Of a stretch of 17,706 nt of DNA, positions 13,912 through 17,706 are shown in pieces. The notes beneath the pieces were generated by a model. The model did no database searches and was not told where the DNA came from. It worked only from the letters and a program-made list of their open reading frames with translations. Origin of the DNA: an uncultured Eubacteriales bacterium (GTDB lineage: Bacteria > Bacillota > Clostridia > Oscillospirales > Oscillospiraceae). The stretch lies in contig URNZ01000041.1 of NCBI GenBank assembly GCA_900549405.1, positions 1 through 17,706 on the forward strand, read 5' to 3'. How positions within the stretch are numbered: the stretch's first letter is position 1; each line of letters starts with the position of its first letter. The position numbers were made by a program, and so were the translations under genes.

Positions 13912-15161
13912 CGGGCGGACATGATCTGATCGTGGTGGGCGGTGGCGCTGCCGGGATGATGGCCGCCATCTCCGCCGCCCGACTGGGGGCGGACGTGTGC
14001 CTGGTGGAGCGCAACCAAAAGGTGGGGCGCAAGCTGTACATCACCGGCAAGGGCCGCTGCAACGTGACCAACCACTGCACCCCGGAGGAGGCCCTGGCCG
14101 CCACCCCCCGGAACAGCCGCTTTCTGTTCAGCGCCATGAGCCGCACCACCCCCGCCGACGTGGAGCACTTTTTCACCGACCTGGGGGTGAAGCTGAAGGT
14201 GGAGCGGGGAAACCGGGTGTTCCCCGCCTCCGACAAGGCCGCCGACATCATCGACGCGCTGTTTTTCGAGCTGCGGCGGCTGAAGGTCCCCGTGGTCCAG
14301 GCCCGGGCCACCGGCCTGAAAACAGAAGAGGGGAAAGTGACCGCCCTTGTCACCGACCAGGGGGAGTTCCCCTGCCGCGCCCTGATCCTGGCCACCGGCG
14401 GGGCGTCCTATCCCGCCACCGGTTCCACGGGGGACGGCTATGACCTGGCCCGCCAGGCGGGGCACACTGTTGTCCAGCCCGCCCCGTCTCTGGTCCCCCT
14501 GGAGTCTCCCGACCCCTGCTGCGGACAGATGCAGGGCCTGGCCCTGAAAAACGTGGTCTTGACGGTGAAGAACCGGAAAGGTAAAATAGTATACCGTGAG
14601 CTGGGTGAGCTGCTGTTCACCCACTTCGGATTGTCCGGCCCCCTGGTCCTGTCCGCCAGCGCCCACATGCGGAGCTTTGACAAGGACCAGTACACCTGTG
14701 TCATCGACCTGAAACCCGCCCTGGAGGAGTCCGCCCTGGACGCCCGCCTGGTGCGGGAGCTGACGGCCAACGCCAACCGGGACATGGCCAACGTCATGGG
14801 CACGCTGCTGCCCCGGCTGATGATCCCCGTGGTGCTGGAGCGGGCGGAGATTCCCCCGGACCGCAAGGCCCACGACCTGACCAAAGGGGAGCGCCACCAT
14901 CTGCTGGAGACCCTGAAGGGCTTTCGTATTCCCGTGTCCGGCCCCCGGCCCATCACCGAGGCCATCATCACCGCCGGAGGCGTGAAGGTGGGGGAGGTGG
15001 ACCCCAAGACCATGGCGTCGAAAAAGACGGAGGGTCTCTACTTTGCCGGGGAGCTGCTGGACGTGGACGCCTACACCGGGGGCTTTAACCTTCAGATCGC
15101 CTGGGCCACCGGCCGGGCGGCGGGGGAGAGCGCCGCAGAGCGGCTACAGAACGGCCTGTAA
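13908..15161 (+). CDS. NAD(P)/FAD-dependent oxidoreductase, HI0933/YhiN/BaiN-like
   Basis: The 417-residue flavoprotein belongs to the HI0933-like group, which includes the proposed bile-acid enzyme BaiN. The reaction for most members, including this one, is unknown. The FAD-binding Rossmann motif VVGGGAAG (Gly11, Gly13, Gly16) and Glu34 for the ribose are at the N-terminus. The group's hallmark GKGRCNVTN follows near residue 46. The C-terminus carries GLYFAGELLDVDAYTGGFNLQIAWATG, the usual second flavin-contact segment. The GTG start overlaps the regulator's stop (GTGA) with GAAGG a few bases upstream. No signal peptide or membrane segment is seen. Codons near 14575-14600 (AAA GGT AAA ATA GTA) are AT-rich compared with the rest of the gene and coincide with a promoter-like sequence. 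Confidence 0.93.
   Translation: MTGGHDLIVVGGGAAGMMAAISAARLGADVCLVERNQKVGRKLYITGKGRCNVTNHCTPEEALAATPRNSRFLFSAMSRTTPADVEHFFTDLGVKLKVERGNRVFPASDKAADIIDALFFELRRLKVPVVQARATGLKTEEGKVTALVTDQGEFPCRALILATGGASYPATGSTGDGYDLARQAGHTVVQPAPSLVPLESPDPCCGQMQGLALKNVVLTVKNRKGKIVYRELGELLFTHFGLSGPLVLSASAHMRSFDKDQYTCVIDLKPALEESALDARLVRELTANANRDMANVMGTLLPRLMIPVVLERAEIPPDRKAHDLTKGERHHLLETLKGFRIPVSGPRPITEAIITAGGVKVGEVDPKTMASKKTEGLYFAGELLDVDAYTGGFNLQIAWATGRAAGESAAERLQNGL
14559..14587 (+). promoter_or_regulatory. Candidate internal promoter inside the flavoprotein gene
   Basis: TTGACG (14559-14564) and TAAAAT (14582-14587) match the sigma-A consensus at five of six positions each, with an ideal 17-base spacer. The local codons are unusually AT-rich for this gene. 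It reads toward cmk-plsC-ispH-rpsA and could give those essential genes transcription independent of the regulator. Chance occurrence is possible. Confidence 0.4.
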
Positions 15162-15177
15162 ACACAATAAAAGTTTT

Positions 15178-15181
15178 GGAG
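15178..15181 (+). promoter_or_regulatory. Ribosome binding site selecting the cmk start
   Basis: GGAG lies 9 bases before the ATG at 15191. The in-frame TTG at 15176 overlaps this site, so the extra five codons are unlikely to be translated. Confidence 0.65.
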
Positions 15182-15190
15182 CGAAAAGGC

Positions 15191-15868
15191 ATGAAGCATA
15201 TCAGCATCGCCATCGACGGTCCCGCGGGCGCGGGAAAGAGCACCCTGGCCCGCCAGGCGGCCCAGCGGCTGGGGTTTTTATATGTAGACACTGGGGCCAT
15301 CTACCGCACGGTGGCCTTAAAGGCGCTGGAGTCGTCCGCTGATCCCGCAGACCCGGAGCAGGTGGTCCCCCTGCTGGATGGCCTGAACGTGAAGATGGAC
15401 CATGGGCCCGACGGAGGACAGCGGATGTTCCTGGACGGGAAGGACGTATCTGATGCCATCCGGCAGCACCGGGTGTCCGGCGCTGCCTCCCAGGTGGCGG
15501 CCATTCCCCAGGTGCGGGAATTTCTGCTGGACTTTCAGCGCCGCCAGGCCCGGGAGCATGACGTGATCATGGACGGGCGGGACATCGGCACGGTGGTGCT
15601 GCCCAACGCCGACGTGAAGATCTTCCTCACCGCCGCGCCGGAGGCCCGTGCCCACCGCCGGGCCCGGGAGCTGGAGCTGCGGGGGGAGCAGGCCGACTAT
15701 GAGACCATCCTCCACGACATCATCCGCCGGGACGAGCAGGACCGGAACCGCCCTGTGGCCCCCCTGCGCCAGGCGGAGGACGCGGTGCTGGTGGATACCA
15801 CCCGGCTGAACCTGGAGGAGAGCCTGGAGGCCCTGCTGGCCGCCATTAAGGAGCGGACGGACCGATGA
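15191..15868 (+). CDS. cmk: Cytidylate kinase
   Basis: Cmk phosphorylates CMP and dCMP using ATP, recycling pyrimidine nucleotides for RNA, DNA and phospholipid synthesis. The 225-residue product has the P-loop GPAGAGKST at residues 10-18, VDTGAIYRTVALKAL at the substrate pocket, the CMP-binding insert and the signature DGRDIGTVVLPNADVKIFLTA. Then come EARAHRRARE and RDEQDRNRPVAPL with the arginines expected for catalysis. Length and order match bacterial cytidylate kinases. The frame extends back to a TTG at 15176, but GGAG spacing favours the ATG at 15191. The stop overlaps the ATG of plsC in an ATGA, indicating coupling. The cmk-plsC-ispH/rpsA run is a familiar Clostridia arrangement. Confidence 0.97.
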   Translation: MKHISIAIDGPAGAGKSTLARQAAQRLGFLYVDTGAIYRTVALKALESSADPADPEQVVPLLDGLNVKMDHGPDGGQRMFLDGKDVSDAIRQHRVSGAASQVAAIPQVREFLLDFQRRQAREHDVIMDGRDIGTVVLPNADVKIFLTAAPEARAHRRARELELRGEQADYETILHDIIRRDEQDRNRPVAPLRQAEDAVLVDTTRLNLEESLEALLAAIKERTDR

Positions 15869-16494
15869 ACGAGATGGAGAAAAATCCTCAGGACAAGGTC
15901 ACTGACCGCTGGTTCCACTTCCTCTATGCGGTGATCTGGCCCTTCTTCAACCTGTTCCGGCCCCTGAAAGTCATCGGCCGGGAGAATATCCCGGATGGTG
16001 CGGCGGTGCTGTGCCCCAACCACACCACCATCGGCGACCCCTTCTATGTGGTGTTCGCCTTTGGCCGCCGGTACCCCATGCGGGCCATGGCCAAGATACA
16101 GATCATGCGGGTGCCCTTCATCGGATGGATCCTGGGCAAGGGCGGCGTGTTCGGCGTAGACCGGGGACACGCGGATATGCATGCGGTGAAGACCGCCCTG
16201 AAGCTGCTGAAGGACGGAAACAAGCTGCTCATGTTCCCCGAGGGGACCCGGGTCCGGGAGGGGGAGGATGTGGCGGCTAAAACGGGAGCGGCCATGTTTG
16301 CCACCCGCACCGGCGTGCCCCTGGTGCCCATCTATATCCAGCGAAAAAAGCGGCTGTTCGCCCGGAACGCAGTGGTCATCGGCCAGCCCTATCACCCCCA
16401 GTACGCCGGGCGCAAGCCCACGCCGGAGGAGTTGGATGCCATCACCGGGGACCTGATGGACCGGGTCCGCGCCCTGGGGGAGGGACAGCCGTGA
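15865..16494 (+). CDS. plsC: 1-acyl-sn-glycerol-3-phosphate acyltransferase (PlsC family)
   Basis: PlsC transfers an acyl chain to lysophosphatidic acid, making phosphatidic acid for membrane lipids. The 209-residue product has the four acyltransferase motifs. The NHTTIGD block holds the catalytic HX4D pair (His53, Asp58). GGVFGVDRG supplies the second, FPEGTR (124-129) the glycerophosphate-binding third, and VPLVPIYI the fourth. An N-terminal hydrophobic stretch (about 17-32, FHFLYAVIWPFFNLF) probably anchors it to the inner face of the membrane. It overlaps cmk by ATGA and the ispH-rpsA gene by GTGA, so all three are likely translated in a coupled way. Another lysophospholipid acyltransferase of the same fold cannot be excluded. 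Confidence 0.93.
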   Translation: MNEMEKNPQDKVTDRWFHFLYAVIWPFFNLFRPLKVIGRENIPDGAAVLCPNHTTIGDPFYVVFAFGRRYPMRAMAKIQIMRVPFIGWILGKGGVFGVDRGHADMHAVKTALKLLKDGNKLLMFPEGTRVREGEDVAAKTGAAMFATRTGVPLVPIYIQRKKRLFARNAVVIGQPYHPQYAGRKPTPEELDAITGDLMDRVRALGEGQP

Positions 16495-17706
16495 GCGTCG
16501 TGTTAGCCAAATCTGCCGGCTTCTGCTACGGTGTACGCCGGGCGGTGGAGCTGGCGGAGCGGACGGCAGAGGAGGGGCGGCCCTGCGTGATGCTGGGTTC
16601 CATCATCCACAACAAGGATGTCATCGCCCGTCTGGCCGAAAAGGGCCTGACGGCGGTGGAGCGGCCTGAGGACGTGCCCGAGGGCAGCGCCGTGATCATC
16701 CGCTCCCACGGGGAGGGCAGAGCGGTCTATGACCAGCTCCGGGCCCGTGGGGTGGAGATATTGGATGCCACTTGCCCCAACGTCACCCACATCCATCAAA
16801 TCGTGGCTCAGGCTGAAGAAATGGGCCGTCAGCCGGTGATCGTGGGCACGCCGGACCACCCGGAGGTGACGGCCATCGCCGGATGGTGCAGCCACCCAGT
16901 TGTGGTTTCTGGGGCGGAAGAGTTGGAAAAATGGCTGGTTCAGGACGAAAAACGCCGGAATTTGCCCCTTACTTTTGTATCTCAAACAACGTCCACCCGG
17001 AAAATTTGGGATGACTGCGTGAAAAAAGCAAAAAAAGAGTGTACAAACGCAGAATTTTTTGATACAATATGTGGAGCGACATCCAAACGCCAGGAAGAGG
17101 CCCATCGGCTGGCCCAACAATGTAGCCTGATGGTGGTCATTGGCGACGGAAAAAGCTCTAACACCAAGCGTCTGGCAGAGATCTGCAAAGAGGTCTGCCC
17201 GGACGTGCGCCTGATCGAACGGGCGGCGGACTTAGAGCCATCCGCCTTATCCCAGGCGAATGTGGTCGGCATCACGGCGGGCGCCTCGACGCCTGCGTGG
17301 ATAATAAAGGAGGTCTATGACAAAATGAGCGATGAAAACATGGAGATCGAAAAGTCCTTTGCTGAAATGCTGGAGGAGTCGATCAAAACTTTAAATACGG
17401 GGGATAAGGTCAAGGGCAAAGTCGTTGCGATCACTCCCACGGAGATTGAGGTGGAGCTGGGCGTGAAGTACCCCGGCTACATCCCCCTGTCCGAGCTGAG
17501 CGACGATCCCAGCGTGAAGCCCGAGGACGTGGTGAAGGTCGGCGACGAGATCGAGACCTACGTCATGCTGGTCAGCGACCGTGACTGCATGGTCAAGCTG
17601 TCCAAGAAGCGCCTGGACATGGTCAAGGGCTGGGAAGAGATCGAGGCCGCCAAGGACAACGAGACCGTGATGGAAGGCTTCGTCACCGAGGACAACAAGG
17701 GCGGCG
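16491..17706 (+). CDS. ispH: Fusion of IspH (HMBPP reductase) and ribosomal protein S1; 3' end outside window
   Basis: One open frame joins two proteins. Residues 1-278 are IspH, the iron-sulphur enzyme that makes IPP and DMAPP in the MEP isoprenoid pathway. Its cluster cysteines are Cys12 (SAGFCYGV), Cys95 (DATCPNVTHIH) and Cys194 (TICGATSKRQEE), and His40, His73, His123 and Glu125 (HPEV) match the substrate-binding residues. From Met279 the sequence is ribosomal protein S1: an acidic lead-in, then a first S1 RNA-binding domain (GDKVKGKVVAI, GYIPLSEL, VKLSKKR), and a second beginning at the window edge. This fusion is known from Clostridia, where it is annotated as a bifunctional protein. 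The GTG start overlaps plsC. A strong ribosome site and ATG at the junction could also yield free S1. I checked the junction and the frame is continuous; no stop or frameshift separates the parts. Confidence 0.93.
   Translation, partial: MSVVLAKSAGFCYGVRRAVELAERTAEEGRPCVMLGSIIHNKDVIARLAEKGLTAVERPEDVPEGSAVIIRSHGEGRAVYDQLRARGVEILDATCPNVTHIHQIVAQAEEMGRQPVIVGTPDHPEVTAIAGWCSHPVVVSGAEELEKWLVQDEKRRNLPLTFVSQTTSTRKIWDDCVKKAKKECTNAEFFDTICGATSKRQEEAHRLAQQCSLMVVIGDGKSSNTKRLAEICKEVCPDVRLIERAADLEPSALSQANVVGITAGASTPAWIIKEVYDKMSDENMEIEKSFAEMLEESIKTLNTGDKVKGKVVAITPTEIEVELGVKYPGYIPLSELSDDPSVKPEDVVKVGDEIETYVMLVSDRDCMVKLSKKRLDMVKGWEEIEAAKDNETVMEGFVTEDNKGG
17040..17068 (+). promoter_or_regulatory. Candidate internal promoter for the S1 part
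   Basis: TGTACA (17040-17045) and TACAAT (17063-17068) are 17 bases apart, with TG at 17060-17061 making an extended -10. It lies in an AT-rich island (about 16955-17090) within the otherwise GC-rich ispH part and 257 bases before the internal S1 start. It is suggestive but untested. Confidence 0.45.
17306..17327 (+). promoter_or_regulatory. rpsA: Internal ribosome binding site and ATG at the IspH/S1 junction
   Basis: AAAGGAGGT (17306-17314) is a near-perfect Shine-Dalgarno site, 11 bases before an in-frame ATG at 17325. That ATG begins exactly where S1-like sequence starts (MSDENMEIEKSFAEMLEE). It could direct independent translation of S1 from the fused message. Confidence 0.6.

Follow-up and report, generated by a model that had tools for sequence, protein, structure and literature searches.

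The analysed stretch of DNA, referred to as the window, comprises 17,706 nucleotides, and at its end lies, on the forward strand, a fused ispH-rpsA gene (16491..17705), the 3' end of which is beyond the window. Its GTG start codon overlaps the stop codon of an upstream acyltransferase gene (TIGR00530, 90 bits, just below the cut-off of 103), and a frame upstream of the fusion gene, when read by eye, is presumably cmk. From the GTG at 16491 to the end of the window, the frame runs through 405 codons with zero stops and codes for an N-terminal IspH (LytB) domain (residues 3-279, 16497..17327; Pfam PF02401 LYTB, E 3e-91), followed in the same open frame by the first S1 domain (PF00575, residues 301-364), which is the sole S1 repeat inside the window. 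The NF000907 score is 412 bits, against a curated cut-off of 624, for the 405 residues of this incomplete gene that lie in the window. Among the best 120 of the 7999 proteins scored, the full-length relatives are mostly fusions of 643 amino acids with LYTB and S1 domains, and two of these 120 proteins carry a name, bifunctional reductase/S1 protein.

At the junction, a predicted Shine-Dalgarno sequence of S1, AAAGGAGGT (17306..17314, + strand), is spelled mainly by the IspH K-E-V codons. It is followed by an in-frame ATG (17325..17327, + strand), the predicted start of free S1 (MSDENMEIEKSF...), with 10 bases between AAAGGAGGT and the ATG and 11 bases between GGAGG and the ATG. This ATG codes for residue 279 and is located at the IspH/S1 border, since the LYTB match extends to residue 279 and the first S1 domain starts at residue 301. 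The sequence-only reading had described an uninterrupted frame from IspH into S1 with a Shine-Dalgarno sequence and an in-frame ATG at the point where S1 begins, and each of these observations is borne out. At 11 nt, the distance from the Shine-Dalgarno sequence to the ATG is slightly on the long side, which is a point against an internal start. When considering the window only, the sighting is weak in this GC-rich genome, because the 90 coding-strand GGAGG sites in its 17 gene frames (the incomplete first frame being left out) generate 31 site/start pairs with an in-frame ATG, GTG or TTG 4-12 nt downstream, the junction included. The + strand of the window has just two copies of the longer AAGGAGGT (at 2284 and 17307). 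Compared with control stretches of the same genes, the stretch from the Shine-Dalgarno sequence to the start codon is somewhat more open (0.53 versus 0.42, sd 0.12). An out-of-frame ATG ACA AAA TGA (17317..17328, + strand), whose stop codon overlaps the S1 ATG, is probably incidental; 36 of 230 fused loci have an out-of-frame ATG 3 nt past the GGAGG.

The relatives used for comparison come from a genome contig scan (24 loci), from four genomes behind those loci and from further genome searches around a close relative, covering 200 genomes of the family, 147 of the order, 118 of the class and 149 of the phylum. Part of the matches was retrieved, being 30 loci each from the family, order and phylum searches (some overlapping earlier ones) and none automatically from the class search, and 160 more stretches were hand-picked for spread and for broken fusions. 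After removal of four unrelated S1-domain genes and three loci that are too partial, 270 of the 277 loci were judged. These are 237 fused loci, 16 split loci (with adjacent, separate ispH and S1 genes), 15 loci with ispH but without S1, meaning that no S1 is present within the 1.5-2 kb downstream stretch retrieved, and two loci cut by a contig end. Once four repeats and two loci whose junction regions are identical are left out, 231 distinct fused loci remain; one fused locus was misaligned at first, the motif being present on inspection. Of 25 genomes searched for S1 at E 1e-30, 24 give a single match; the remaining one, in which the genes are split, also gives a shorter second match. One genome of the phylum set has a second, unfused IspH relative in addition to its fused gene.

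The GGAGG and an in-frame start codon 8 or 11 nt later are present in 231/231 distinct fused loci, with ATG at 11 nt in 219, ATG at 8 nt only in eight and GTG at 11 nt in four of them. It could be argued that the Shine-Dalgarno-like sequence simply follows from the conserved K/E-E-V residues at the C-terminus of IspH and from GC-rich codon use, such that the fusion is the only product. The motif is indeed coded by conserved residues, similar site/start pairs are not rare in the window, as described above, and one unfused ispH (L210) has CAGGAGG with no S1 nearby. This explanation is contradicted by the synonymous null, in which each gene's own codon usage is used. In the first set of 199 fused loci, and with related loci treated as independent, the codon at the site is GAG in 199/199 versus 106.9 expected (sd 6.3), and a codon ending in G followed by GAG is found in 197/197 versus 69.1 expected (sd 6.0). 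The GAG codon is kept also in all 57 genes that disfavour it (GAG below 0.4 of the Glu codons, mean 0.24), and in the same-gene control, which covers 899 further [KEQR]E[VA] triplets, GGAGG occurs in 153.

The loci in which S1 starts elsewhere or is absent are natural controls, and in these the motif is mostly gone. It is present in one of the 15 ispH genes without S1 in the retrieved downstream stretch, being L210, and in one of the seven split loci with an S1 start elsewhere (L169, L212, L230, L231, L258, L261 and L262). The latter is L261, where the GGAGG is retained though S1 apparently starts elsewhere, which is a point against the internal start. In nine of these 22 control loci x-E-V is still coded, with GGAGG in two and GAA in seven, which also argues against a mere by-product of the protein sequence, an explanation that we consider very improbable. 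The ribosome-binding site and the start codon inside the frame are conserved beyond amino-acid need, and it is this conservation across relatives that, at the level of the sequences compared, lifts the junction signal far above chance. The conservation of the Shine-Dalgarno sequence at synonymous positions, by which the sequence-only reading had proposed to judge its suggestion of dual translation, is therefore found.

The dual-translation suggestion is supported by this conservation and also by the split loci. In seven of the 16 (L168, L171, L172, L208, L209, L259 and L260) S1 starts at the junction in another frame, 9-10 nt past the same GGAGG and inside the end of ispH. Two further split loci are ambiguous (L170 and L174), with the GGAGG kept and the S1 frame opening further downstream. 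In L170 a run of A precedes the first start codon of the S1 frame, which is 46 nt downstream of the junction motif, and this late start may be due to a frameshift, slippage or a sequencing error. The breaks of L168, L169, L170 and L174 are isolated, single-assembly breaks that could include sequencing errors; an identical break is found in two genomes each for L171/L172 and L259/L260, and L208 and L209 are close relatives that are both broken. In a tree of the IspH domain (FastTree, 265 rows) the split loci sit in clades with fused relatives, with mixed support for the nearest nodes. Parsimony on this quick tree gives 13-18 losses versus 0-4 gains of the fused state, when S1 relocation is counted as a loss, and the break-up of an old fusion is therefore more frequent here than a fresh fusion. 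As the seven split loci start S1 at the junction and lie among fused relatives, S1 seems to have stood alone on the internal start more than once. These loci bear also on the possibility that the Shine-Dalgarno-like site is a programmed pause that aids the folding of IspH before S1 is made, without any new start, as its location at the domain border might suggest. A pause needs no start codon, whereas one is found 8 or 11 nt away in every distinct fused locus, and the seven split loci use the same place as their S1 start; such a pause is hardly credible as the explanation.

The sequence-only reading missed a second signal, which is a promoter-like site within ispH. This predicted sigma-A-type promoter (17040..17068, + strand) has the -35 hexamer TGTACA (17040-17045) and the -10 hexamer TACAAT (17063-17068), with 9/12 matches, a spacing of 17 nt, which is within the 16-18 nt range of this promoter type, and an extended -10 TG at 17060-17061. 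From the promoter geometry, transcription is predicted to start at 17074..17078 (+ strand), about 7 nt past the -10 hexamer. The site is in an AT-rich dip (GC 0.38 versus about 0.65), about 260 nt upstream of the S1 start, and TGTACA-17-TACAAT is the sole promoter-like match in 15000-17706, with 0.5 expected in shuffles. In E. coli the rpsA promoters lie inside the upstream cmk gene, and the predicted site is similar in that an S1 promoter would lie within an upstream coding sequence; in E. coli, however, cmk and rpsA are separate genes, whereas here the promoter is in the same open frame as S1.

The promoter pattern is conserved within a part of the relatives. The full pattern, TNTACA-N17-TACAAT, is present in 75/77 loci of the family-dominated batch, where the misses are two Sedimentibacter loci from the four-genome sampling, and in 62/82 loci of the order batch, where the misses include a family genome whose -35 hexamer reads TTTACT. 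It is also present in 14/22 loci of the contig-scan batch, the eight misses being distant loci. The class batch has the full pattern in 2/40 loci, with TGnTACAAT kept in 17/40, and the phylum batch in 0/50. The codons of D-T-I read GATACAATA in 168/184 sites (166/182 once four repeated loci are removed) versus 4.9 expected from codon usage, an expectation that again treats related loci as independent, and the promoter is kept across genes of GC 0.37-0.66. When 12 genomes are searched for TACA-N17-TACAATATG, it is found at ispH in all of them and at two other places in total, the reversed control giving none. The fused loci L142, L144 and L184-L187, for instance, retain the junction Shine-Dalgarno sequence and ATG and have no ispH-internal promoter. 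Among the split loci the promoter is retained in six, all of the order batch (L168-L172 and L174), and ten are without it. A scan for a replacement promoter in 90 loci of the promoter-less lineages gives no clear excess (mean best score 9.28 versus 8.68, with 42% of the synonymous shuffles as good). Since, in addition, the pattern is mostly absent outside the order, independent transcription is not universal.

It is possible, though unlikely, that only translation starts internally and that the promoter-like site is some other DNA or RNA element or is inactive. This would be in agreement with the Shine-Dalgarno sequence and start codon being present in all distinct fused loci and the promoter in some lineages only. 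It is less easily reconciled with the hexamers, the spacing and the TG extension, which fit sigma-A, or with the retention of the pattern at such different GC contents and its being almost unique in the 12 genomes. The leader, moreover, shows little conserved RNA structure. When 97 thinned leaders are compared with RNAalifold, one stem of four pairs is found, with an energy of -1.9 kcal/mol versus -0.2 (sd 0.5) for 30 codon-column shuffles; this energy is below that of the shuffles, but there is almost no covariation (0.1). For the shorter region around the ribosome-binding site (68 rows) RNAalifold gives no structure, and an Rfam scan of 16300-17706 gives no match up to E 1. A structured or autoregulatory S1 leader RNA is rejected on these grounds.

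Both signals are also seen in a scan for synonymous constraint over the 405 codons in 126 fused rows, which comprise the window and those relatives whose alignment score is at least 900. There are three clear peaks, against a median z of 3.0 over the 246 scorable columns, and two of these coincide with the promoter (codons 181-193, z up to 29) and with the ribosome-binding site and start codon (codons ~265-282, z up to 17). The third peak, at codons 297-305 (z up to 25), is in S1.

The fused protein is probably not the sole form of S1 of the cell, because a conserved start signal, and often a promoter, is present within the enzyme part. The preferred reading, to which we assign a probability of about 0.88, is that the locus generates a minor IspH-S1 fusion and, in addition, free S1 from its own internal promoter and ribosome-binding site. 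Only ribosomes that begin at the ispH start would then read the gene as a fusion, their translation running on into S1. Transcription from upstream would give a long mRNA, from which the IspH-S1 fusion and some free S1 are made, and every mRNA on which the internal ribosome-binding site is present would allow free S1 to be made. An S1-only mRNA would arise in this lineage from the internal promoter and would have a leader of about 250 nt that consists of the 3' codons of ispH. Having its own promoter and start signal, free S1 would be separable from IspH in amount and in regulation, and its output could exceed that of IspH and be regulated separately; it is plausible that S1 is required in ribosomal amounts in these Clostridia. 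The comparison shows that the elements are there, that they are conserved more than the protein demands and that they persist at loci with a broken fusion; from the sequences we infer the use of these elements by RNA polymerase and ribosomes in the fused genes, as well as the ratio of the products. Whether the fusion is largely a side effect of two expression units that overlap in one frame, with free S1 as the working S1 and the tail of IspH as tolerated read-through, is a matter on which we see the odds as even.

The fusion itself is already known as the IspH-RPS1 'Rosetta stone' fusion (Rao et al. 2015, PMC4746011; NCBIfam NF000907). Of the papers that the literature search yielded, PMC4746011 is the only one with the fusion as its subject. 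In the parts of PMC4746011 considered here, 447 IspH-RPS1 sequences are described, the majority from Firmicutes and mainly from anaerobes, with carriers having no other ispH or rps1 gene. One fusion, when expressed, is an active enzyme for which the S1 repeats are unneeded in catalysis, and the authors propose that the fusion is connected with the stringent response or with the sensing of iron or oxygen. The same fused gene is thus concerned, seen in that paper as one polypeptide with possibly linked functions, whereas separate S1 expression is indicated here. Its main text does not contain the terms promoter, start codon or Shine. The fusion is mentioned once in the part seen of PMC12605070, and the part seen of PMC8336468 holds nothing relevant to S1 expression from the fusion. 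A literature search, with subscription papers mostly outside its range, found no account of separate S1 expression from it. A comparable case is Cas11, which is an internal in-frame translation product of cas8/cas10 (McBride 2020, cited in PMC11899642). As described in the part of PMC11899642 considered, one frame there too yields a long protein and, by means of an internal start, the C-terminal part of that protein, the ratio of the two being different. The internal start of Cas11 is shown by experiment, whereas the one described here is predicted from sequence; in the present case an internal promoter is also indicated, and the products would be an enzyme fusion and a ribosomal protein.

So far, the fusion has been taken to suggest a link between isoprenoid synthesis and the ribosome in anaerobes. 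If the fusion is largely a side effect of overlapping expression units, the 'Rosetta stone' inference of a functional link between IspH and the ribosome would fall. If S1 is made separately, annotations as a single bifunctional protein miss a main product, a promoter concealed within ispH would determine the dosage of S1, and the reason for the existence of the fusion becomes testable by silent mutations alone.

The locus is also a clear case of a promoter and a ribosome-binding site apparently constraining the codons, and even residues, of an enzyme. Residue 185, which is spelled by the -35 hexamer, is Thr in 142/142 fused rows with the promoter and varies among the remaining rows, such that DNA signals may shape the enzyme. 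For the third peak of synonymous constraint, which covers S1 codons 19-27 (17379..17407, + strand), a structure or role was looked for and none was found; a AAAACTTTAAATACAGGAGAT-like stretch with at most four mismatches is present there in 97/237 fused and 4/16 split loci, being patchy among the relatives. Single columns also stand out beyond the three peaks, and foremost of these is the codon of Ser222 (17154-17156), between the promoter and the ribosome-binding site, which is AGC in 103 of 126 rows versus 30 expected (z 15.5).
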